From positions 1 through 57,387 of the forward strand of contig JAFSTN010000004.1 in the NCBI GenBank assembly GCA_017450485.1: a stretch of 57,387 bases of DNA, written 5' to 3'. Below are positions 20,735 to 37,493 of this stretch, piece by piece. The DNA is from Lachnospiraceae bacterium (GTDB lineage: Bacteria; Bacillota; Clostridia; Lachnospirales; Lachnospiraceae). Positions within the stretch are counted from its first letter, which is position 1. Each line of letters starts with the position of its first letter. Under the pieces are notes generated by a model, which worked only from the letters and a program-made list of their open reading frames with translations, ran no database searches and was not told where the DNA came from. The position numbers and the translations under genes are program-made.

Positions 20735-20802
20735 CTGCGTCTGCTGTCTGCGTCCTACAGCTCGATGCCTGCGTCTGCTGTCTGCGTCCTACAGCTCGAT
20801 GC
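20735..20802. repeat. Perfect 34-bp tandem repeat at the end of the UDP-sugar pyrophosphorylase gene
   Basis: Two identical 34-base units (20735-20768 and 20769-20802) starting CTGCGTCTGCTGTCTGCGTC on the plus strand. The unit contains the last codons (Ile-Glu-Leu) and the TAG stop of the gene plus 19 bases beyond, so the stop codon context is duplicated downstream. Confidence 0.95.
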
Positions 20803-22036
20803 CGTTAAGCTTGCACAGCTCTCTGGCGCTCTCCACCGAATCGATGCCGGTCTTGTTCTTGATCGGAGCAAACTCTTTCTCACGAACCACCTCATAAGGC
20901 AGGCACGATGCCAGCTGATGTATCATATCGAGAACCAGCTGCTCAAACTTATATCCGTTCGGCTTATCGGGCTTGATCAGCTCACCGTTCTCATCCAGAC
21001 ATGGTATCTTCTTCTCAACCACATGCATGGGCAGCGACTTCGAGAGGATATCCTCCAGAGCCGATACCTTGAACAGATAATTGAGGATAACTCCGAAACG
21101 GTATGCCGGCTCGCCCTTATCATTCTTTGCATGCATGATCTCATCAGTCATCTCATAGTACTCTACGATCGACGGTCTGCCGTCCTCGAGGCACATTACG
21201 CCGATGGCTTCATCGGGCGCGGCTTTCGCGACCACTTTGGCACCGACTTCCACATCGCGTTCGATGCACGCTCCCACGAATGCAGGGTCGGCGATGCGCT
21301 GAAGCACGTTATCCACTGCGAAAATATTCAGATACTCGATGCCCTGCTCATGTACGCCGTCAAGCAGTCCCGCATTCACAAGGGACTTGAACCAGCCGGC
21401 ATTTCCGTTGGGCGAAGTGGCGATACGGCTCTTACTCTCCAGATATACCTTGCCGTTTCTGTCTGTCGCGGGAGCCATATCCTGCTTGAAGAAGTGTACG
21501 AAGTCTTTATTGTATCCGAAGTAGTTCTTCTCCTCGAAAAAGCCGATCGTAGCGTCGTTGTTTTTCTCACTGGTCATGATATAGAAGGGGATCCAGATAT
21601 CGTCACGGCCTGCTGCAGCGTTGGCTGCGCGGATAACGTCCATCGTGTTCTCGATCAGACGCTGGAAAATGAACACCTCATGTGTCAGGCCGATATCGTA
21701 CATTCCCTTCGGATTATCCGATCCGAGTCTCGTGCCCATACCGCCGGCCAGAAGAACGGCGCCGACACGGCTGTGCGCTATCGCATCCAGACCTATGGCT
21801 GTGAATTCATCCTTATGTGCCTCGATCTCGGGCAGTTCCATGCATTCGAGCGGGCTGATCACTCCCTTCTCTGCTCCGTGCTCACCCTGGCTGATATAAT
21901 CGATGACGCTGAAATCGGTCTCATCTATCTGTGTGAGCAATGCCTGCTGTTCTTCGGCACTCAGAGTGTCGTAGTACCGCAGGATCTGAGTCTGTCCTAT
22001 CTTATCAAGTTTCTCATACGCTTCCCGGTAGTTCAT
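20789..22036 (-). CDS. UDP-sugar pyrophosphorylase of the eukaryotic UAP1/UGP family
   Basis: A 415-residue nucleotidyltransferase that should make a UDP-sugar (most likely UDP-N-acetylglucosamine or UDP-hexose) from UTP and the sugar 1-phosphate. The nucleotide-binding loop LAGGMGTRLG (96-105) with the following lysine (K110, in NPKGMYD) is intact. FKQDMAPA, SPNGNAGWFKSLV and IFAVDNVLQRIADP are typical of the UDPGP family rather than of bacterial GalU or GlmU. GlmU-type acetyltransferase domain is absent. AAAGGACC precedes the ATG. It may feed the surface-polymer genes upstream. Its stop codon lies in a tandem repeat. Confidence 0.9.
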   Translation of the reverse strand: MNYREAYEKLDKIGQTQILRYYDTLSAEEQQALLTQIDETDFSVIDYISQGEHGAEKGVISPLECMELPEIEAHKDEFTAIGLDAIAHSRVGAVLLAGGMGTRLGSDNPKGMYDIGLTHEVFIFQRLIENTMDVIRAANAAAGRDDIWIPFYIMTSEKNNDATIGFFEEKNYFGYNKDFVHFFKQDMAPATDRNGKVYLESKSRIATSPNGNAGWFKSLVNAGLLDGVHEQGIEYLNIFAVDNVLQRIADPAFVGACIERDVEVGAKVVAKAAPDEAIGVMCLEDGRPSIVEYYEMTDEIMHAKNDKGEPAYRFGVILNYLFKVSALEDILSKSLPMHVVEKKIPCLDENGELIKPDKPNGYKFEQLVLDMIHQLASCLPYEVVREKEFAPIKNKTGIDSVESARELCKLNGIEL

Positions 22037-22111: not shown

Positions 22112-22858
22112 TCAATATCTGCGCACACGGCCCTCGCCCTGCAGGATACGCCGTCGGTCCGTAGGAGCCACATCGACGATATGGCCTGTGCGGTCATACT
22201 GCGTGAGCAGATCGGAGTTCTTGGCCAGACGTCTGCCGCCGTAATCGACCAGAAAAGCGGAGACGTCGTCCATTTTGTCCGCGGAAGAGCGTGTTGCACC
22301 GGCAGCCGTCATGCTTCCGGCGGTATCCGCAGCTGTTCGGGTGGATTCCGTGGTGCTTGCGTCGATGCCGGCGGTCTGCGCGCTTTCCGTGGATTCCGTG
22401 GCTTCGGCCCCCGGTGCTGCGGTTCCGGCACCGGATGCTTCGGTTCCGGCTCCCTTCTCGGCTTCCTCGTTTCCTCCGTTCCAGATCGACAGGAAGAAAT
22501 TCACGATGGAACGCCAGGTATCCCTGAATATGTCGGCTATAGACTGCTCTGCCGGTTTCTCCTGCCGCTGAACACCGTCCGTGGACAGCTCCACTGCAAC
22601 TCCCGGTCCGTCGAATCTGCTGTGCAGATTGGCCCGTGCGGCTTCTTTCTCCTCCTGTGCTATCTCCTCACGTATCTGGGCAATAGTCTTGGTTTCCTCG
22701 GTCGGAGCCCTGCCGGGCTCATATATCACGCCCTCGGCTTCTTCCGACAGAAGTCTGAATCCGCTGTCATCCTTGCTCGCATCGGCATCCTGCACTCTGC
22801 GGCTGATCGTATTATTATCATACGGAGTGGTTCCGTTTATCCTGTCTATGCCGGCCAC
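22112..22858 (-). CDS. Low-complexity protein with conserved ends, unknown function
   Basis: A 248-residue protein, no signal peptide. The N-terminal 90 residues are charged, a short amphipathic or hydrophobic segment (SIVNFFLSIWN) lies near 117-127, and residues about 135-195 are Ala/Thr/Ser/Glu-rich low complexity. The last 45 residues (FLVDYGGRRLAKNSDLLTQYDR...) look conserved; I recall a similar C-terminus in other Lachnospiraceae proteins. A GTG start at 22858 follows GGAGG by 7 bases. It lies between the SGNH-like gene (98 bases) and the UDP-sugar pyrophosphorylase (75 bases). Function unknown. Confidence 0.8.
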   Translation of the reverse strand: MAGIDRINGTTPYDNNTISRRVQDADASKDDSGFRLLSEEAEGVIYEPGRAPTEETKTIAQIREEIAQEEKEAARANLHSRFDGPGVAVELSTDGVQRQEKPAEQSIADIFRDTWRSIVNFFLSIWNGGNEEAEKGAGTEASGAGTAAPGAEATESTESAQTAGIDASTTESTRTAADTAGSMTAAGATRSSADKMDDVSAFLVDYGGRRLAKNSDLLTQYDRTGHIVDVAPTDRRRILQGEGRVRRY

Positions 22859-22956: not shown

Positions 22957-24039
22957 CTACCTGTACAGGTCCAGCAGCCCATCATAATCAAACCCTACGG
23001 CGATCTCCCTCATATGGCTGATATGAGCTTCCAGATCCGAAGCGTCTCTCACCCGGTCGGTGCCGTCGGCGAAGTACTGCACCATCAGAGAGTTATACCG
23101 CGGATGGTAGTGCGTATAATCCGCATAGTTGTTCAGATCTGTTATGATATCCTCTTCATCGGCGAAAAAGAATATCTCGCAATTATCATATTCAAGCAGC
23201 ATCCGCGATATCACATCATATTCATGAAGCGTAGCCTCGACTTTGTTCTGATTGACGCAGTCGTTCCAGAACAGGATGCTGTAAGGCGGATAAAAGACCA
23301 CAAACCGGGTATCGGGATGCGCCTCTATATATGGAAGTATATTCTCTTTCATATTAACACAAATCTGCTCCTCAAAGTAGTCTTTGGGAAGCTCCGAGGG
23401 ACGCGGGATCATTTCCTCATAATCGGCCATATAGTTAGGCATCACGTAGTTGATATTGTAATATTCATCGGTCCACCAGCTGTGATACACGGTCGCCATA
23501 TCCGTGGGATCCGGCGAGATCATGGGTTTGATCACGTAGTTGAGCACTACATCCTTATTCAACACATAATTGATATCGTTCACGCAGCTGTCGTCATACA
23601 GGTATTCGGGCAGCGGGAACTTGATCTGATCCGTATCGGATGAGTAATTGATCACGTCTATGCCCAGAAATACGGTATCCGTATCCGGATGAGTCTCAAA
23701 TATGATCTTCATGATATTGGATATGTCTCTCGGATAAGCACCGGAATAGGGCAGCTTGATGGTATTCAGTCCCAACTCCTCAGCGAAATCGCGCGTATCG
23801 AAGTTTACTGTCATGGACGAGCCGAGGATCACGGAATCATAGTCCATATGCGCAGCCATGCCGGGGTTCTGGGAGAGCTGATTGTCTACCTCGTAGGGAA
23901 AGCCTTCGAGCGGAGCATGATAATGGAAAAAGGGATCCACGACAACCACCAAAACAGCACAAACAAGCGCCAGAGCTGCTCCGGCTGCCAGGAGAATGAT
24001 TATATATTTTTTAAATCCTGATTTATTTTCTTTGCCCAT
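22957..24039 (-). CDS. Membrane-anchored SGNH-like protein, probable partner of the MBOAT acyltransferase
   Basis: A 360-residue protein with one N-terminal membrane segment (about 12-34) and an extracytoplasmic domain. The GSS motif in VILGSSMT (73-75) and a DxxH-like ending in ADYTHYH (about 305-312) resemble the SGNH hydrolase/acyltransferase fold used by AlgJ/AlgX/DltD-like partners of MBOAT proteins. It follows the MBOAT gene by 29 bases, which supports that pairing: the MBOAT would carry the acyl group across the membrane and this protein transfer it to a surface polymer. The polymer is not known. The ribosome-binding site is weak. The catalytic triad needs an alignment to confirm. Confidence 0.8.
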   Translation of the reverse strand: MGKENKSGFKKYIIILLAAGAALALVCAVLVVVVDPFFHYHAPLEGFPYEVDNQLSQNPGMAAHMDYDSVILGSSMTVNFDTRDFAEELGLNTIKLPYSGAYPRDISNIMKIIFETHPDTDTVFLGIDVINYSSDTDQIKFPLPEYLYDDSCVNDINYVLNKDVVLNYVIKPMISPDPTDMATVYHSWWTDEYYNINYVMPNYMADYEEMIPRPSELPKDYFEEQICVNMKENILPYIEAHPDTRFVVFYPPYSILFWNDCVNQNKVEATLHEYDVISRMLLEYDNCEIFFFADEEDIITDLNNYADYTHYHPRYNSLMVQYFADGTDRVRDASDLEAHISHMREIAVGFDYDGLLDLYR

Positions 24040-24068
24040 TTTAATTCAACTGATAAACCGGTCTCATC

Positions 24069-25634
24069 CTAGAAGTTAAAGTACAGGAAAGTGCTGACCT
24101 CAGATAACGACAGCACGCACCACAGGCCGAGAGCACCGAGAAGAACGGCATTCAGGACTCTCGGCTTCATCCTCCGCACGCACTTATCCGCATTCGGAAG
24201 GACCGATACCGTGACCAGAGCCGCGATCGTAACCGCGATCATGACCAGGTTGTGGGCCAGCGGGAAATTGTACCCCGGCAGTCCGGAGAACTTCACTATA
24301 TACCACAGCTCATCTATCTCGACAAACTTATCGGCCAGAGTGTAGTTCACGTTTTTCCAGGTTCCGGTGAACATCCTGCGTATGAGTTCGGTCCCCTGGG
24401 ATATACTCTCCGCACGGAAGTATATCCATGCAAAACTGACATATAAAAAAGTAATGATCCTGCCGGCTGCCCGCAAGGCGGTCCTGACGATGCTGCCCGG
24501 TGCAGGTCGGCGTCCGTCATCATCCGGTGTCTGTCCGGCTCCTGCCTTTTCTGTAGCCCCCGCTGCTTCTTTATTGCGGCGCATATGCCTCTGAACTGTC
24601 CTGACCAACGCATACGCCACCCCGTGCAAAGCTCCCCAGAGTATATAGTTCCAACCGGCACCGTGCCACAGGCCGCTCAGGAGATACACTATCAATATGT
24701 TTACTATGGTCCGGACCTCACCGCATCTACTTCCGCCCAGCGGAATGTATACATATGCTGTGAAGAATCTGGTCAGAGTCCTGTGCCATCTGTGCCAGAA
24801 ATCGGTTATATCATCCGCCTGATAGGGCGAATCGAAGTTCACCGGCAGTTCAAAGCCCAGCATGCACGCCAGTCCGCGAGCCATATCGCAATATCCGCTG
24901 AAATCAAAATAAAGCTGCAGCGCGTACCACACCATGACAAGAAAGCTGTCCAGACCACCCAGCTGCGGTATCATATCGTATCCCGCATCCACGGCACGCC
25001 CCAGCGAGTCGGCTATGAGAGTCTTCTTGGATAATCCGAGTATAAAAAGCGACAGCCCGCGGGCTATCTTCTCTGCTTCGGGTTTACGGCCTCTGATGGT
25101 CTTAAACTGCGGCAACATCTCGGCCTGAGTGACTATAGGACCTGCCACCAGCTGCGGGAAGAGCGAAACAAACAGCGCATAATCAATGAAGCCGACCCGG
25201 TCCGCTTCGCCTCTGTACGTATCTGCCAGGAAACCGATCTGCTGGAATGTGAAGAAACTGATCCCGAGCGGAAGGAGTATTCCCCTCAACGGGATATCTG
25301 TCTTAAAAATAAAATTAAGATTTGATATTGTGAAGTCCAGGTATTTGAAATAGCCGAGCAGTCCAAGGTTTATAATAACGCCTGCGATCAATATGGCCCT
25401 TTTTCCGGTTTTTTTATCCGTTCGATGCATGAATTGAGTTAAAAGATAATTTAGCAGAATGGAAACGGCCATGATGATCAGATAGGCAGGGCTGAAAAAG
25501 CCGTAAAACCAAAGGGAAAATCCAATCAGCCAGATTCGGGCAGGCACATCACGATCATGTCCGGCCAGGAGATAAAAACCGGTTATACACATGGGAAAAA
25601 ACAGGAATATGAAGATGTATGAATTAAACAACAT
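24069..25634 (-). CDS. MBOAT family O-acyltransferase (AlgI/DltB-like)
   Basis: A 521-residue multi-pass membrane protein with about ten hydrophobic segments. It carries the conserved features of the family: a FFTFQQIGFLADTYRG type stretch near 130, the YCDMARGLACMLGFELP loop, TDFWHRWHRTLTRFF near 285, and the catalytic histidine in LSGLWHGAGWNYILWGALHG (near 325). A basic cytoplasmic loop follows. Such proteins transfer acetyl or other acyl groups from inside to outside for modification of polysaccharides or teichoic acid. It starts 3 bases after the membrane protein upstream and is followed by the SGNH-like partner. Confidence 0.94.
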   Translation of the reverse strand: MLFNSYIFIFLFFPMCITGFYLLAGHDRDVPARIWLIGFSLWFYGFFSPAYLIIMAVSILLNYLLTQFMHRTDKKTGKRAILIAGVIINLGLLGYFKYLDFTISNLNFIFKTDIPLRGILLPLGISFFTFQQIGFLADTYRGEADRVGFIDYALFVSLFPQLVAGPIVTQAEMLPQFKTIRGRKPEAEKIARGLSLFILGLSKKTLIADSLGRAVDAGYDMIPQLGGLDSFLVMVWYALQLYFDFSGYCDMARGLACMLGFELPVNFDSPYQADDITDFWHRWHRTLTRFFTAYVYIPLGGSRCGEVRTIVNILIVYLLSGLWHGAGWNYILWGALHGVAYALVRTVQRHMRRNKEAAGATEKAGAGQTPDDDGRRPAPGSIVRTALRAAGRIITFLYVSFAWIYFRAESISQGTELIRRMFTGTWKNVNYTLADKFVEIDELWYIVKFSGLPGYNFPLAHNLVMIAVTIAALVTVSVLPNADKCVRRMKPRVLNAVLLGALGLWCVLSLSEVSTFLYFNF

Positions 25635-25637
25635 ATG

Positions 25638-26456
25638 CTATTCCATGTAGAGGGTGCCCTTGAGTACTTCACGGACATGTTCGGCGGCAACCTCATCCTT
25701 GTATAAAATATAACCGTTATTCTTCGAAATCATAGTCAGTCCGTGAGATGCCGGATCGGAATCCATGGCCCGCCCCTCGGGTACCACGAAGTATGTTGCG
25801 ACACCTATGCCCCTCTCGGGAGCTCTGGTGAGTTCCAGCACTTCTCCCCAATCCAGTGTCTCCGCCAGCTCATATGCTTCATAACACGGATCGTAATAGC
25901 CCCAGACCGGCTCAACGGCTTCACGGCCGTAGATCAGGCACAGGCTTGCATCATATTGGCGCGCATAGAAAAGCATCTCAAGCGGAACACATGCATAAAC
26001 CTCGACACCTTCTATATCCTGCGTCATCTGATCACAGAGATCACATACATATTGCGGGATATGATAGGCATTTTCCGCACGTGCCGATTCAACAGCGGTA
26101 TAGGTGAATCTGCCGCACAGTACCAGCACCGCGCACACTGCCACCGCTCCTATACGCCTGTGAGCGTTTATAGCCTTGCAGCCCGCATATACCACAGTCA
26201 CGGCTATCGGGACCATCCACAGATTGCGGTAATATGTCCCTACGGCATCTATGCCCAGCACATATATACGGTAATACACCGGACTGATGTATATGAGAAG
26301 CAACGCGAGCGGAAGGTAGCATACCAGGAACCTGTTACGCTTATCTCTCTCAGTGATGAACAGGTAGACGAGCGCAACGAGATAAAGCACGAGCAAAAAG
26401 CCCGAACCCCGATACTGCCATATGACTCTGAATACATCCTTGATATTATCTACCAT
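25638..26456 (-). CDS. Membrane protein with C-terminal extracytoplasmic domain, unknown
   Basis: A 272-residue protein. Four predicted hydrophobic segments lie in the first 120 residues (RGSGFLLVLYLVALVYLFI, the LPLALLLIYISPVYY stretch, WMVPIAVTVVYAG and AVAVCAVLVLCGRF), then a soluble domain of about 150 residues. I recall similar proteins in Lachnospiraceae encoded just after DUF6077 genes; they share an IPQYVCDLCDQM-like stretch and a YGREAVEP motif. No function is known. It is 49 bases after the DUF6077 gene and 3 before the MBOAT gene, so it belongs to the same unit. Confidence 0.85.
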   Translation of the reverse strand: MVDNIKDVFRVIWQYRGSGFLLVLYLVALVYLFITERDKRNRFLVCYLPLALLLIYISPVYYRIYVLGIDAVGTYYRNLWMVPIAVTVVYAGCKAINAHRRIGAVAVCAVLVLCGRFTYTAVESARAENAYHIPQYVCDLCDQMTQDIEGVEVYACVPLEMLFYARQYDASLCLIYGREAVEPVWGYYDPCYEAYELAETLDWGEVLELTRAPERGIGVATYFVVPEGRAMDSDPASHGLTMISKNNGYILYKDEVAAEHVREVLKGTLYME

Positions 26457-26505
26457 AGCTCTGTCGGCATCACTGCCATATGTCTCCCGACACCGGGAAG
26501 CCTGT

Positions 26506-27594
26506 CTATCTCCACCCGAAATAGGTATAGTACAGATACAAAATCATATATATAAGCCCCGGAACACAGCACACGCAGGCCCATATGAACGGCCTGATCC
26601 TGCGTTTCATGATCGATATGACCAAACCTCCGGCGCCTGTCATCACGCATACCAATACCACCGCCAATGAGCTGAATATGCCTGCAGACGCATTGACCAG
26701 AAGCATGGGAAGCCATGTCACGAACCCGCCGTCATCATCTGACAGCAACCTGTCGGACATGATCATATACGTAAGGATCAGCGTCGGGAGCAGAATATTG
26801 GCTGCTACAGCTTTACCCTGCCATGTCCTTGCCATAAGAAATGCCTCGGGGGTATATATGGACACACGTCCGAAGAGAATGAATACTTCCGTAAAGATCA
26901 CGAAATATCCCCACATCACCCTTTTACCCTTAAGCAGTCCGGCCCCTGTCTGGCCGTATATAACGATGGTCAATGGGATAAATATAAGAGGGAGCACGCT
27001 GTGACACAGCACTGTCGTGTGTATGCCCGTTAATCTCCCCACATACGAGATCCACATGGTGAAAACCGCCAGCGCATGTCTCATATCTATAGCCGCCGCG
27101 CGTCCCGTATAGGGATTAGACGAATACATCGCGCCTTTTTGCTGTGCTATGAGTGATTGAGCCACATAATAGGCATCATCTCCGTCGAATATGACTCTGA
27201 CAGATACCAGAACCAGCATCACCGCCAGTATCACGATTGCAACGAACCAGACTATGATCTGCTCTCTGTCATGAAAGATATCACTCAGCTCGTCCTTCAG
27301 GCGGTCATTCGCCTCGCCGATGCATCCGGTCCTGCAGGCACGGATCACACCGACAGCTGATAAGGTCAGCATCAAAGGAGTATATATCCAAATCACATAG
27401 CGGAAATTATTGTAATCACTGAGCAAAAGCACCGGCACGGTCACAAGCTCGAAACTCGTCATCATGACCAGATAGCCGTATGTGAGCGCAAGAGGCCACG
27501 TCCTGCACTTTAAGCCGCTCACAACCGCGAGCCCCATACATACAGGTACTGCCACAAGGATCAATATGGACATTATTATCTGAAAAATGATCAT
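26506..27594 (-). CDS. DUF6077-like multi-pass membrane protein
   Basis: A 362-residue hydrophobic protein with about nine or ten membrane segments. The stretch FDGDDAYYVAQSLIAQQKG followed by NPYTGR near 135-165 is what I associate with DUF6077 proteins, which often lie in surface-polysaccharide clusters of Lachnospiraceae and may be glycosyltransferase-like (the acidic loop after a membrane helix recalls GT-C enzymes). The family name is recalled, not searched. It begins 5 bases after the DUF6020 gene stop. No enzymatic activity is known. Confidence 0.82.
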   Translation of the reverse strand: MIIFQIIMSILILVAVPVCMGLAVVSGLKCRTWPLALTYGYLVMMTSFELVTVPVLLLSDYNNFRYVIWIYTPLMLTLSAVGVIRACRTGCIGEANDRLKDELSDIFHDREQIIVWFVAIVILAVMLVLVSVRVIFDGDDAYYVAQSLIAQQKGAMYSSNPYTGRAAAIDMRHALAVFTMWISYVGRLTGIHTTVLCHSVLPLIFIPLTIVIYGQTGAGLLKGKRVMWGYFVIFTEVFILFGRVSIYTPEAFLMARTWQGKAVAANILLPTLILTYMIMSDRLLSDDDGGFVTWLPMLLVNASAGIFSSLAVVLVCVMTGAGGLVISIMKRRIRPFIWACVCCVPGLIYMILYLYYTYFGWR

Positions 27595-27599
27595 ATAAG

Positions 27600-29384
27600 T
27601 TACCCGCTATGCGTTCCGTCGGTATGTACGGGGTGTGCTCCGGCATGTGAAGCCGGGATCATCGGAAGTATCACAAGCAGCATAAAAGGATACATATATC
27701 TGACCAAAACCGCCGGTCCCAGTAGGATCGTGAGAAATACCATCATTGGATAGAGCAGTATCGTCCCCGTCACGCGGTCACAGCGTACAATACTTACATA
27801 AGCATATGCCGCAAGGATCCACACATACAAAGCCGGTGCGAACAGAAAACGGATAAGAGGTACTTTCTCAAAAGCATTATCGCTCACCAGGCTCTCCATC
27901 GCATTTCTCACTCCGGGCAGATGGCTGTGTGGGATCACTTCAAATCCGGGCGGCATACTGCGTGTGTCAGTGGACAGATAACCGAATCCGGATGCCCTGC
28001 CCTCTCCGTAGATACGGTTTACCGAAGTATCTCCGATATACCATGCTCCCTCTGACGTGTAGAGCCATGCATCCAGATAATCTCCGGGCCACCTCAGTCC
28101 CAGCCCGATCCAGGTTTTGACAAAGCCTGCGGGGTCGTCCAGGGATATGTCACGCTTCACCGGATCCGCCAGATGCTCATTATATCTGGAGGATAATTCA
28201 TCACTGCTGCCGTTCATCACTTCAGCCAGCGTTTCTGCGCTGTCGGCCGGTATCTCATCTGCATGGAGTACATATACTCTGGCCATCTGCTGTATCGGAA
28301 CGGCCATGGCCTCTCTCGGGCTGCCCATGGATGCGTGAAGTGCGGCTTTCATCCCGCCGCTTATGAGGCATCCGGCTATACATCCGATCAGGATCGCTAC
28401 GACCGGCCGAAAAGGGATCCGGGAATCGTCCGTTACACCCGAAGCTGTCCGGGGGCTGCCGGACATGCTCCTGTGTTTTGCGATGATGCCTATCGTCATC
28501 ACGATCATCACCGATACAAGCGCATACAGTGCATTATTCCTGAAAAGGACCATAAATGTGGCAACAGGTATCATTTGCAGATAGCTTTTTTTGTCTGATC
28601 CCTCGCACAGGTACCTGCGCATAAGCAACACAAAAACCGGAACCAGCCCTGAAAATACCACATCCTTGGTCGTGGAGATGGCCAATACGGGATTCACGGG
28701 GAAAAAAGCGCAAAAAGCACCGTATAAACAAAGCAGCCAGCGTCGCGTCCCAAGCCTGTATGCTTCGGCAATGATCCACCCCAGAACAGCAGCCAGAAAC
28801 AGCATCTGCAGAACGGCGTACAAAACCATCCCCGCTTCAATGCCTCCCACATCCCACATCAGATTCATGCAGGCCCCGAGGATAAGCGTGTGCAGAAGCG
28901 GATGATGGGTGGAGTAGGTCTGAGATATCACCTGCCCGAGCTGTGCCTCGGCATCATATGCAAAAACAGCCGGATAGTAGGCCAGCCATACCGGTATCCA
29001 GGCAAGCAAAATACCCAGAGAGGCAATAAGCCATATCTTCGGGCTGACGGTGACGGAACGGACCTGAATCCGCGAATTCCTGCCGGCATCACAAGCCGCC
29101 TCCGGCGGATCCTCTCCGGTAGCACCGACCGTCGCCTGAGCCTTCGACCGTCGCCATGTCCACATACACATCATCACAGCCGCCAATACGCTCCCGCACA
29201 GCAGACTCAAACCTATGCCCGGGATCAGATACTTTGATGCCGAGCCGAACCTGTCCAGGCACCGGCCGCATATCAAGCACAAAAAAAAGCAAAAACCGAA
29301 CCCCTCCGATAACAGAAGGGTTCGGATAAAATCGGATCTGTCAGTATCAATCCAGTTCTTCAGACTGTTCGGTAGACTCTTCAT
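27600..29384 (-). CDS. DUF6020-like multi-pass membrane protein
   Basis: A 594-residue membrane protein with about 12 hydrophobic segments. The extracytoplasmic loop with ...[26 protein letters not shown] near residues 165-190 and the [12 protein letters not shown] motif fit DUF6020, a Firmicute family thought to be GT-C-like glycosyltransferases. An acidic aspartate in the first loop (VFAYD) would be the catalytic candidate. The ATG at 29384 is used because the longer start at 29417 (which has the better AAGGA site) would overlap the FAD gene by 71 bases instead of 38. Part of the seven-gene cluster. Confidence 0.82.
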
Positions 29385-30921
29385 GATATTCTTCTTCTGT
29401 ATTAACACTCCATACATTATCCTTGGAGGTCACACCGGAGAGGATATTTTTAACAGCCTCAAATGATGTGCACATACTATGATCGATATTGTTGTATCTG
29501 TGCTGTCCGTTACGTCCTACACAGTATAGGTTGTCTATGCCTTTCAGATATCCTACGAGCTCGTCTATGCGGTCATATGTATCAAAGTATGCGGGATATG
29601 CTTTTTTCACGCGCTCCACATGAGTATCGATCACATCATCAGCCGAATCTATCAGACCGAGCTCAACCATCTCCTTCACTGCGAAATCGGAGAATTTATC
29701 ATCGGGCATCGTCCAGAATTCATCACCTTCATTAACGAAGTACTCCAGACCGACCCATACGGTGTTCTCGATGTCCTTGATCATGTAAGGTGACCAGTTG
29801 TTGTATATCTGGAATCTGCCGAGCTTAACCTTGCGCTCCTGGACATATACCCAGCAGTCGGGCACTATATTCGATACAGTCTTGATGTCGGTCTTGTTCT
29901 CAAGGTTCAGCTTCGGAACAAGCACACCCAGAGTCATGTAATCTCTGTAGGGAAGTCCGGCTGCTATTTCCGACTGAGCAGCAGGAACATCATTCATGCC
30001 GCCAATGAGATCCTTCAGCGGCATAGATGAGATGATGATGTCGCCATCCAGCTCATGCTCGGATCCTTCAGCCACATATGTCAGGCCTGTCAGATGGTTA
30101 TCGGCATTCTTATGAACCTTCGTCACCTGAGAGTTCATCAATATGGTTCCGCCCATTTTGCGTACTTCATCGGCGGCTACCTCCCAGAGCTGGCCGGGAC
30201 CGAGCTTGGGATACTTGAACTCCTCTATGAGAGAAGTATTGACCTTACGATTCTTGACTTTAAACAGTCTGCCGAGATAATCCTTAATGATACCGAAAAT
30301 GGAGAGGCCCTTGGTCCTCTGCTTGCCCCATGAGGCATCTATCTCGCTGGGATGCCTGCCCCACAGATTCTCGGTATAGTACTCAAAGAACATGGCGTAC
30401 AGTTTTTTGCCGAAATTGTTGATATAGAGATTCTCGAGATTGTCCTCGGGCCTCTTGTGAAAAGTGGAAGCCAGATAAGAGAATCCGACCTTCATCGTGG
30501 TCATAAAGCCAAAGTTCTTGAAGGTCTCGGGCTTAAGTGATATCGGATAATCATAGAATTTCGAATCAAAGAGGATCCTGGATACCCTGTGTCTGGTCAG
30601 CATGACACGATCGACCTGCTCCGGATCCGGTCCGCCATCCTTTAACGGCATCTCGCGGCCGAGCTTCTTATCGTCCCATGTAGGCGATCCCTGAACCGGC
30701 AGGATACTGTCCCACCAGGCGTTGACCTCGGGAATCTTGGAGAAGAATCTGTGACCGCCCATATCCATGCGGTTGCCCTTATACTCTACGGTCTTCGATA
30801 TGCCTCCGATGTAGGATGATTCCTCAAGGACAGTGACATCATATCCTTTATCGGCCTTGAGAAGCTCATATGCAGCTGTCAGACCGGCAGGGCCGGCACC
30901 TATGATCAATACTTTACTCAT
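29347..30921 (-). CDS. FAD-dependent oxidoreductase, UDP-galactopyranose mutase-like
   Basis: A 524-residue flavoprotein. The N-terminal dinucleotide-binding GAGPAG (8-13) and the [17 protein letters not shown] loop match the amine-oxidase/UDP-galactopyranose mutase superfamily. [19 protein letters not shown] (near 185) and the C-terminal [16 protein letters not shown] (near 480) are conserved in a bacterial clade usually annotated NAD(P)/FAD-dependent oxidoreductase. Substrate unknown; in a polysaccharide cluster a nucleotide-sugar or lipid substrate is a reasonable guess. AGGAGG lies 12 bases before the ATG at 30921. The last 20 residues are Glu-rich and overlap the start of the DUF6020 gene by 38 bases. 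Confidence 0.88.
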
Positions 30922-30951
30922 CCGCGGATAAATCCTCCTGGTTTTCGTCAC

Positions 30952-31932
30952 CTATTTCTGACTGAGCGACTGCTTTGCCCCGTGCAGAACCGTGGAATGA
31001 TTAAGCTCATCCTGCACGGCAACCATACGCAGCCCCGCATCTATGAAATCGCAATGCTTACAAAAAGAATAATTCTGCCTGCCGTTCCTTAAGTCTTCAC
31101 GAAGCTTGCGGTATTTCTCCGAATTCCATCCGGCTTTCACACCCACTTCGCGGATATCGGCCAGATCAGTCACCTCGAAGTTATCGCAGCAGCATATTCC
31201 CATTTTGCCGTTAGGCATGATCCACATATCCGTATATGGCATCAGACAGGTCTCGGTGATGATCTTCTCTGTGGCCTGCTTATTCGGAGCCGATCCGGCA
31301 CGGTTCGTCAGAACCTCCTGCAGGTATCTCATCTGGATCAGGATCTCGACATCATCGAATTCTTCGGGATGAGCCTTTACGTAATCATATATCTCCTGTA
31401 TGTTGTCATGCAGCTTCATGTCCATGCAATAGTTGTTGATGATGAGCTGATCGACATACTTCTTGACTTCCTGCACGGTCTCAAGCTTCAGTATCAGACC
31501 GTTCGTCGACATGAATATGAATGCATCGGGCAGTTTCTCCCTGGCATACTTATGGAACTCGATGATACGGGGATCGAGCAGCGGCTCATTATTGCCGTAC
31601 AAGGTCAGATGCCCCTTATATCCCCAGTCCGCCAGCTGATCGATGATGGAGTAATAGAGATCATCGTCGATCTTCATGAGCGGCCTCTTCTCCGCATATA
31701 TATTCGCAGTACAGAATGCGCATGTGGAATTACACCTGTTAATCGTCTCGATGTTTACAACGAGCGGTTTCGGGGGTTCTTCCGAGCTCAGGAAATACTC
31801 TATATACTGATCCTGAAGTTTACGTCTGCGTGAGAACTGGAGTTTCAGATAAGCGTTAGATGACAGCTGGGGAAAGTACTTACGCATATTCCATCCCAGC
31901 TTGCCCATAAAGTTATGTATCTTGATAGACAT
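30952..31932 (-). CDS. Radical SAM protein with SPASM-like C-terminus
   Basis: A 326-residue enzyme. The [4Fe-4S] motif CxxxCxxC is at C67, C71 and C74 (CNSTCAFC), followed by LTLYGNNEPLLDPRI, which is typical of radical SAM folds. The C-terminal part has a second cysteine set (TCLMPYTDMWIMPNGKMGICCCDN and FCKHCDF) that resembles the SPASM or twitch auxiliary cluster domain. It makes a radical modification on an unknown substrate; in the same unit as surface-polymer proteins it might modify a sugar or lipid intermediate, but peptide maturases have the same layout. First gene of the cluster; GGAGAGG precedes the ATG. Confidence 0.9.
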   Translation of the reverse strand: MSIKIHNFMGKLGWNMRKYFPQLSSNAYLKLQFSRRRKLQDQYIEYFLSSEEPPKPLVVNIETINRCNSTCAFCTANIYAEKRPLMKIDDDLYYSIIDQLADWGYKGHLTLYGNNEPLLDPRIIEFHKYAREKLPDAFIFMSTNGLILKLETVQEVKKYVDQLIINNYCMDMKLHDNIQEIYDYVKAHPEEFDDVEILIQMRYLQEVLTNRAGSAPNKQATEKIITETCLMPYTDMWIMPNGKMGICCCDNFEVTDLADIREVGVKAGWNSEKYRKLREDLRNGRQNYSFCKHCDFIDAGLRMVAVQDELNHSTVLHGAKQSLSQK

Positions 31933-35900: not shown

Positions 35901-37493
35901 TCAGCCTGTAACTCCGGACAGCAGGAGGATGAAGTATGCATCCTGCTCGGGCTGTCTGAGTATATCACGGCCCGCTTCGGTATCCGAGATATTCACGCTT
36001 CCGTACTGCCCCACATAGCAGGTATTGTACGGATTGCATCCCAGGAAATAGTGCAGGTACTTCTCCATGATATTCTCATATTCGTTGCTGCTGATGATAT
36101 AATTCGCAACAGTCAGTCTGGCGATCTCCGACAGCAGAGTCGCATTTTCGACCGTCTTCGTCTTCTCTCCCATCAGGTACAGCGCATCACGGCGCTCGGA
36201 CGACATTTTCTCTGCATATGAACGCAGATTCGCCATCATCACATCACAGATGGAGTTGTTGGTCTTCTGCTTCGTGGCCAGATAAGTTACAGTTCCGATG
36301 AAAACCACATTATCGGACATATTGTATTCCGTACGCTCCGCGCAGTAGCTCTCCACGATTGTACGATATGTGTAGTAGCCGGTTGCCCGGTAGAGCATCG
36401 CCGCCGCTTTGAAATACTCATCATCATTCACGGTATCGGTGAACTTCGCAACATACTTCATGGCGCGGTCGGCAGCCTGCAGACACTCGGTCGCATATGC
36501 GTTATCAACAGTCTGGTATATATAGCTGAAGTATCCGAGAGCTGACGCAAACGCAAGTGTGGCATCCATGTCTATCGCCATCACGTGACACGGATTATCC
36601 AGGCCTTTTCCCTGGTCCGTACTCACGATGCCTTCATATACGGCACCGGTGGACGGATCCTGCATCTTGAGCAGCCAGTCGGTCTCCACCCGGATCTCAT
36701 TCAGGATATCGGGGATCCCGTCCCCGCTCTCCGGAAGTCCGGCTTCATCCGAGAAAACCTCCGTATTATACTCATATGCGATCAGCAGAGCCTCTATCGT
36801 GTTGCACCCGCGTACCACATCGCGGTCACCGGACTGGTTGATGTGCCAGCCACCGGTCACGTCCATCGATACGTTCACATCCTGCTGAAGAGTGATCGGA
36901 TCCGTGTGGCACGCGCTCCTGGCGCTTTCTCCGGCATATTTATCGGTCAGAGATGTTCCGCAGCGGTTCAGATAGTACTGTCTGAGCGCTACGCTCTGCA
37001 TATCGGCGTATATATCCTCACTTATCGAGAAAGGATATGAATAACCGATCACATCCGTGCGAACATAATATGTGCCCTCGGAAGTCAGCTCCGAGAAATC
37101 TCCGTAATAAAAGGTCTCTCCGCTCGTAGCCTCTGTCTTGGACTTGATCTCACCCGTGTATACCACATCCTCTGTGTCCGCAGATACTATGTAGAACCGG
37201 TCGTCCAGTTCATCCCCGCGGAAAACGGCCATCTTGCGGCTGTCGGGCAGGTACCCCAGCTGATCGATCTCGATATGCGCTTCGATCACGGGGCGGTCAT
37301 AGTCCAGGTCGGGTGTGAGTCCCAGACTCGTGATCTGATCCTCATCGGATGAACCGGACTGCGGCTGAAGCCCTCCCGCAGGCCACCATGGCATATCCTG
37401 CGGAGAACATGCGCTCAGCATCACGGACGAGACGACAAGCATGACCATGAGCTTTAAGGCGCATTCATTTTTCTTAGATGTTCGGTCGCTCAT
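35901..37493 (-). CDS. GH9-like lipoprotein with an altered active site
   Basis: A 530-residue lipoprotein: lipobox LSAC with Cys29, then an acidic linker, a cellulase-type Ig-like domain (about 65-165) and an alpha/alpha toroid similar to glycoside hydrolase family 9 (about 170-530). Where GH9 enzymes have the DAGD motif with the catalytic base, this protein reads [17 protein letters not shown], and the usual C-terminal region after [11 protein letters not shown] is unusually short. It may be a binding or structural protein, not an active glucanase. I recall close relatives in Roseburia-like Lachnospiraceae with the same change. The ATG overlaps the aconitase stop by four bases (ATGA), so it is translationally coupled to it. 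Confidence 0.82.

Follow-up and report, generated by a model that had tools for sequence, protein, structure and literature searches.

A conserved seven-gene unit in Lachnospiraceae couples a putative radical SAM sugar enzyme and a UDP-galactopyranose mutase-like flavoenzyme with probable surface-glycan synthesis and acylation

The 57,387-nucleotide stretch of Lachnospiraceae DNA analyzed here (the window) is contig C37 (JAFSTN010000004.1) of a 2.6-Mb draft genome (G000). Between positions 22957 and 31932 it carries seven minus-strand genes, encoding in order a radical S-adenosylmethionine (SAM) protein, a flavin adenine dinucleotide (FAD) enzyme resembling UDP-galactopyranose mutase (UGM), the membrane proteins DUF6020 and DUF6077, a 272-residue membrane protein, an MBOAT acyltransferase, and an SGNH-like protein. 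A check of the open reading frames (ORFs) in the window recovered all seven at the coordinates of the original prediction, which had described them as one compact unit. With the likeliest starts, the gaps from the radical SAM gene to the SGNH gene are 30, -38 (an overlap), 5, 49, 3, and 29 bases. Five of the seven proteins (radical SAM, FAD enzyme, DUF6020, DUF6077, and MBOAT) have a curated family match, and Pfam and NCBIfam scans gave none above the curated cut-off for the 272-residue membrane protein and the SGNH-like protein. We interpret the genes as a conserved unit for probable surface-glycan synthesis and acylation, with an unusual radical SAM step and a UGM-like flavoenzyme.

The seven-gene order is intact in five of the six other genomes of the genus (G041, G299, G300, G301, and G302), and in the sixth (G303) it is the same up to a contig end inside the MBOAT gene. 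G300 has an extra MBOAT gene between pyrD and the radical SAM gene. This genus-wide order is co-occurrence beyond chance.

The radical SAM gene (30952..31932, minus strand) encodes 326 residues with matches to PF04055 and PF13186, in agreement with the radical SAM/SPASM identity proposed for it, which can now be sharpened to BtrN-like and tied to the flavoenzyme. In a search of solved structures, BtrN was closest (E 5.7e-15), followed by NifB (1.2e-5), suggesting a BtrN-like twitch/SPASM domain and a putative relative of radical sugar-alcohol (aminocyclitol) dehydrogenases. The CxxxCxxC motif (C67/C71/C74) is invariant in 37 sequences, as are the twitch cysteines C229, C247-249, C291, and C294, which align with the four auxiliary-cluster cysteines of BtrN and include extra cysteines at C247-C249. 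R211 (TNRAG), also invariant in this set, pairs with the NRxG arginine of BtrN (LSNRGG), counted as position 152. We take R152 of BtrN to be catalytic, a role for which the literature search gave no confirmation.

Two other activities were weighed for this protein. Many SPASM proteins act on peptides, and AlbA and other maturases gave matches below threshold, as expected if a peptide or protein maturase had been placed in a glycan locus by chance. We consider this very unlikely, since BtrN is the best solved match by nine orders of magnitude, a UGM-like enzyme accompanies close relatives of the protein in 18/18 genomes of the association test described below, and no short precursor-like gene was noticed in the unit by eye, where no dedicated search was made. 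A sugar epimerase, which would abstract a hydrogen and return one on the other face, is possible but somewhat unlikely. Aminoglycoside pathways include radical SAM enzymes that epimerize sugars, and the invariance of the four twitch cysteines and the extra ones would suit such an enzyme; BtrN, the closest solved match, is however a dehydrogenase, and it shares the NRxG arginine.

In G022 and G037, diverged radical SAM cousins are immediate neighbors of family-2 glycosyltransferases, and the genes around them were judged by eye to be glycan genes. A second radical SAM paralogue, 33% identical, occurs in the window's genome (G000:C29:26563-27327, L208) among genes that appear glycan-related by eye.

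The FAD enzyme (29347..30921, minus strand; 524 residues) is of the PRK07208 type. Its start was placed at the ATG at 30921, behind AGGAGG, the mechanical ORF having begun at a GTG at 30951. The expected UGM-like character is borne out by a match to NF005546 (774 bits) and by best solved matches to eukaryote-type UGMs (PDB 3ute and others). H57, R202, R369, R470, Y476, and N478 are invariant in 46 sequences and align with H63, R182, R327, R447, Y453, and N457 of A. fumigatus UGM, as counted from the printed alignment. The FAD motif, the GGH motif, and the diphosphate-binding arginines of the UGM superfamily are present; we take the aligned residues, these arginines included, to have their UGM roles. 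The Pfam GLF domain (PF03275) is not among the 16 families found at E ≤1, and we therefore label the enzyme UGM-like rather than Glf. That result, along with weaker hits in NCBIfam to phytoene desaturases and to protoporphyrinogen oxidases, would also fit an enzyme acting on an isoprenoid or other lipid, as desaturases and oxidases of the broader family do, instead of on a nucleoside diphosphate (NDP)-sugar. With UGMs as the best solved matches and the aligned UGM active-site residues invariant, we regard a lipid substrate as distinctly unlikely.

The association of the two enzymes was examined independently in a 299-genome sample of the family, with close radical SAM relatives defined by at least 59% identity. 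Such relatives occur in 18 of the 299 genomes, and the flavoenzyme is present in 18/18 of these versus 55/299 overall (hypergeometric 4e-15, kinship ignored). By their coordinates, the genes lie within 250 bp of each other in 12 of the 18, in three arrangements, with the radical SAM gene first, with the flavoenzyme gene first, or tail-to-tail. In the remaining six the pair is separated by 5.8 kb (G207) or 41 kb (G290) or split between contigs (G060, G100, G213, and G256). A DUF6077 match is found in 17 of the 18 genomes, versus 115/299 overall. None of the genomes with a diverged radical SAM protein only (G022, G023, G037, G082, and G225) is among the 55 that carry the flavoenzyme. In a phylum sample of 398 genomes, radical SAM relatives (E ≤1e-50) occur in three and flavoenzyme relatives (E ≤1e-120) in five, both sets including the window's genome and G207, which also belongs to the family.

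To describe the wider neighborhood, we used 80 named loci (L124-L203), the best 80 of 489 from a scan with the DUF6077 alignment, mostly titled Lachnospiraceae or Butyrivibrio; the window's close named relatives are Lachnospiraceae of rumen and gut samples. All ORFs of at least 80 residues were kept, short contigs were included, and score thresholds were applied. As the loci were chosen by DUF6077, the counts describe DUF6077 loci and not genomes at large. DUF6077 is present in 80/80, the membrane protein encoded after it in 77/80, MBOAT in 68/80, SGNH in 61/80, the flavoenzyme in 51/80, radical SAM in 41/80, and DUF6020 in 4/80, all four from the window's genus. The conserved seven-family neighborhood that had been anticipated is found within the genus as described above; the wider core lacks DUF6020: the other six families co-occur in 33 of the 80 loci, and in 29 of the 48 that are at least 19 kb long. 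The flavoenzyme accompanies radical SAM in 37 of the 41 loci with the latter (30 tail-to-tail and seven in the same direction), with gaps of 20 to 4793 bases (≤300 in 14/37). GtrA occurs in 13/80 loci, a family-2 glycosyltransferase in 16/80, and an RmlB-like dehydratase in 42/80, consistent with the predicted glycopolymer-type setting. Other genera have different large membrane proteins nearby, such as DUF6044 (21/80) or a protein of 400-530 residues (20/80).

These differences between genera, and the restriction of DUF6020 in this position to one genus, are features of an ordinary variable polysaccharide locus, in which co-located genes would serve separate routes with no common product. We judge this unlikely, because the same six-family core recurs and the radical SAM-flavoenzyme pair is preserved through three arrangements.

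With respect to the membrane proteins, DUF6077 (26506..27594, minus strand; PF19554, 1.4e-100) is followed by the 272-residue protein (25638..26456, minus strand), which has a predicted soluble C-terminal domain. The original prediction treated them as separate proteins; both genes are present, but their sequences identify them as two halves of one protein that is fused elsewhere. Two single-ORF relatives (609 and 627 residues) align with both profiles, that of DUF6077 over columns 32-340 (probability 99.7) and that of the partner over 366-623 (99.2), so that DUF6077 corresponds to the N-terminal half and its partner to the C-terminal half. This relation explains where DUF6077 ends. In the window and the 29 best-scoring other loci of the DUF6077 search, the ORF after DUF6077 is a separate one with its own ATG (30/30; 194 to 336 codons, the shortest clipped by a locus end), which rules out a frameshift or pseudogene as the origin of the 272-residue ORF. 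The fused forms are found among lower-scoring relatives, and the 30-locus sample thus leans towards split genes. A long loop of DUF6077 (132-193) contains D137, G138, D139, and D140, none of which varies among 73 sequences. Hydropathy predicts nine helices for DUF6077 and three for the partner, and a position of this loop outside the membrane is likewise a prediction.

DUF6020 (27600..29384, minus strand, frame open from 29417; PF19484, 1.6e-31) is a multi-pass membrane protein with about 10 predicted helices and a candidate glycosyltransferase. The same genome has two additional DUF6020 genes at other sites. Inside the 5' end of its frame, 21 bases past the stop of the FAD enzyme gene, is a 13-bp hairpin with a T-rich tail (29296..29325, minus strand). 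All 13 pairs are kept in 7/7 genus genomes, and the observed changes are one-sided, not compensatory. Variable columns number 4/30 in the hairpin versus 67/96 directly after it. The encoded peptide is also conserved, so that protein constraint contributes to this conservation. Placed between the genes for the soluble enzymes and those for the membrane proteins, the hairpin is a possible attenuator.

The last two genes encode the predicted acylation pair. The MBOAT protein (24069..25634, minus strand; PF03062, 4.5e-31) ends in FLYFNF, and its H324, Y518, N520, and F521 are conserved in at least 97% of 56 sequences. In the SGNH-like partner (22957..24039, minus strand), which has one N-terminal helix and matches no Pfam family at E ≤1, G73-S-S with the catalytic serine and D307-x-x-H310 with the Asp-x-x-His motif are conserved in at least 97% of 56 sequences. 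In PatA, the acyl group travels to the SGNH partner on a tyrosine within the C-terminal hexapeptide, a mechanism that the authors also apply to other MBOAT-SGNH pairs, those lacking a carrier protein using acyl-CoA (PMC12148441). The MBOAT C-terminal tyrosine hexapeptide of the window is that expected of envelope acyl shuttles, and the motifs of both proteins match the acyl-tyrosine mechanism, suggesting a putative pair of this kind.

Beyond the unit, a gene of unknown function (22112..22858, minus strand) adjoins it in the five genus genomes with sequence there. It separates the unit from the UDP-sugar pyrophosphorylase gene (UDPGP family; 20789..22036, minus strand; PF01704), which had been correctly noted downstream and occupies the same place in the four genus genomes with sequence there. 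The position directly before the radical SAM gene, which pyrD takes in the window, is occupied by an acyltransferase-3-type gene in 4/4 named genus loci (L124-L127; PF01757 in L124, the other three similar by eye). Further upstream, a GH9 cellulase-type protein (PF00759, PF02927) is encoded at 35901-37493, minus strand, amid housekeeping genes. Recurrent in the DUF6077 loci are a further SGNH/GDSL-like membrane protein of ~340 residues (61/80; often convergent after the SGNH gene, Pfam match sub-cut-off), a large protein that combines a glycosyl hydrolase 25 domain with acidic repeats at its N-terminus (40/80), and a small EamA-like four-helix protein (18/80), which we assume might be a lipid-linked-sugar flippase.

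Taken together, the unit probably synthesizes and acylates a cell-surface glycopolymer, or a side branch of one, using a radical SAM sugar step. This is the best explanation of the BtrN similarity with all cluster cysteines, the UGM similarity with active-site residues, the radical SAM-flavoenzyme link, the recurrence of the six core families, the MBOAT/SGNH motifs, the GtrA, family-2 glycosyltransferase, and RmlB-like neighbors, and the diverged cousins beside family-2 glycosyltransferases. In the scheme that we propose, whose substrates, step order, lipid carrier, acyl donor, and polymer we infer, the BtrN-like enzyme would oxidize a sugar hydroxyl in the cytoplasm, or epimerize it via a sugar radical, and the UGM-like flavoenzyme would interconvert the pyranose and furanose forms of an NDP-sugar, both steps leading by one route to a single unusual sugar. 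This sugar would then cross the membrane, perhaps on polyprenyl phosphate, and be transferred by membrane glycosyltransferases, namely DUF6077 with its partner as a split protein and, in this genus, DUF6020 as well. Finally, the MBOAT protein would load an acyl group onto its own C-terminal tyrosine, and the SGNH protein would pass it to the polymer.

Several observations weigh against this interpretation. The flavoenzyme is missing within four of the 41 radical SAM loci (L147, L160, L192, and L198; titled Butyrivibrio), 37 of the 55 flavoenzyme genomes have no close radical SAM relative, and the window unit itself contains neither GtrA nor a family-2 glycosyltransferase. Profile comparisons bearing on the suggested GT-C-like nature of the DUF proteins were weak or null: DUF6077 and its partner showed no relation to the YfhO and PMT_2 profiles (probabilities 1, 20, 60, and 4), and DUF6020 matched PMT_2 weakly (probability 81 over 73 columns), a second DUF6020 comparison in this test reaching 56 over 191 columns. 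A GT-C glycosyltransferase role for these proteins is plausible but unproven. YfhO identity for DUF6077 and its partner, hinted at by a PgfM2 match far below cut-off, gained no support from the profiles. Furthermore, a separate canonical Glf is encoded in the same genome (G000:C27:35503-36129), and Glf is found in 137 of 150 family genomes, which weakens the galactofuranose-type product originally envisaged; the flavoenzyme, having no GLF match, is most naturally read as carrying out UGM-like chemistry on a different sugar. A more specific proposal, which we advance only tentatively, is that the radical SAM protein, as a sugar dehydrogenase, and the flavoenzyme make an undescribed keto or rare furanose sugar, which DUF6077 and its partner, as a split membrane glycosyltransferase, incorporate into a surface glycopolymer that is acylated and widespread across the Lachnospiraceae of the gut.

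If true, the radical SAM carbohydrate chemistry of antibiotic pathways also shapes surface glycans in an abundant gut and rumen family, with a bearing on host and phage recognition. It would also give a testable role to two protein families, DUF6077 and DUF6020; a literature search, with most subscription papers outside it, found no mention of either or of PRK07208, and no connection between BtrN, radical SAM, and polysaccharides.

Parts of the unit can be compared with known systems. BtrN (2-deoxy-scyllo-inosamine dehydrogenase of butirosin biosynthesis; PDB 4m7s, 4m7t) shares with the window protein the radical SAM core, the four twitch cysteines, and the NRxG arginine, whereas the window protein has a longer N-terminus, about 50 residues ahead of the match, and its gene lies in a glycan locus rather than an antibiotic cluster. 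Eukaryote-type UGM and the window flavoenzyme have the FAD fold motifs and aligned active-site residues in common, the latter differing in being PRK07208-type, with no GLF domain match. PatA/PatB and DltB/DltD resemble the window pair in combining MBOAT and SGNH genes and in the tyrosine-bearing C-terminal hexapeptide, but the window SGNH partner has no Pfam family match. Three-component (Gtr/YfhO-type) glycosylation systems likewise have large membrane proteins, and GtrA and family-2 glycosyltransferases appear in the related loci; DUF6077 and its partner show no demonstrable relation to YfhO, and the window unit has no GtrA or family-2 gene but includes a radical SAM enzyme and a flavoenzyme in addition.

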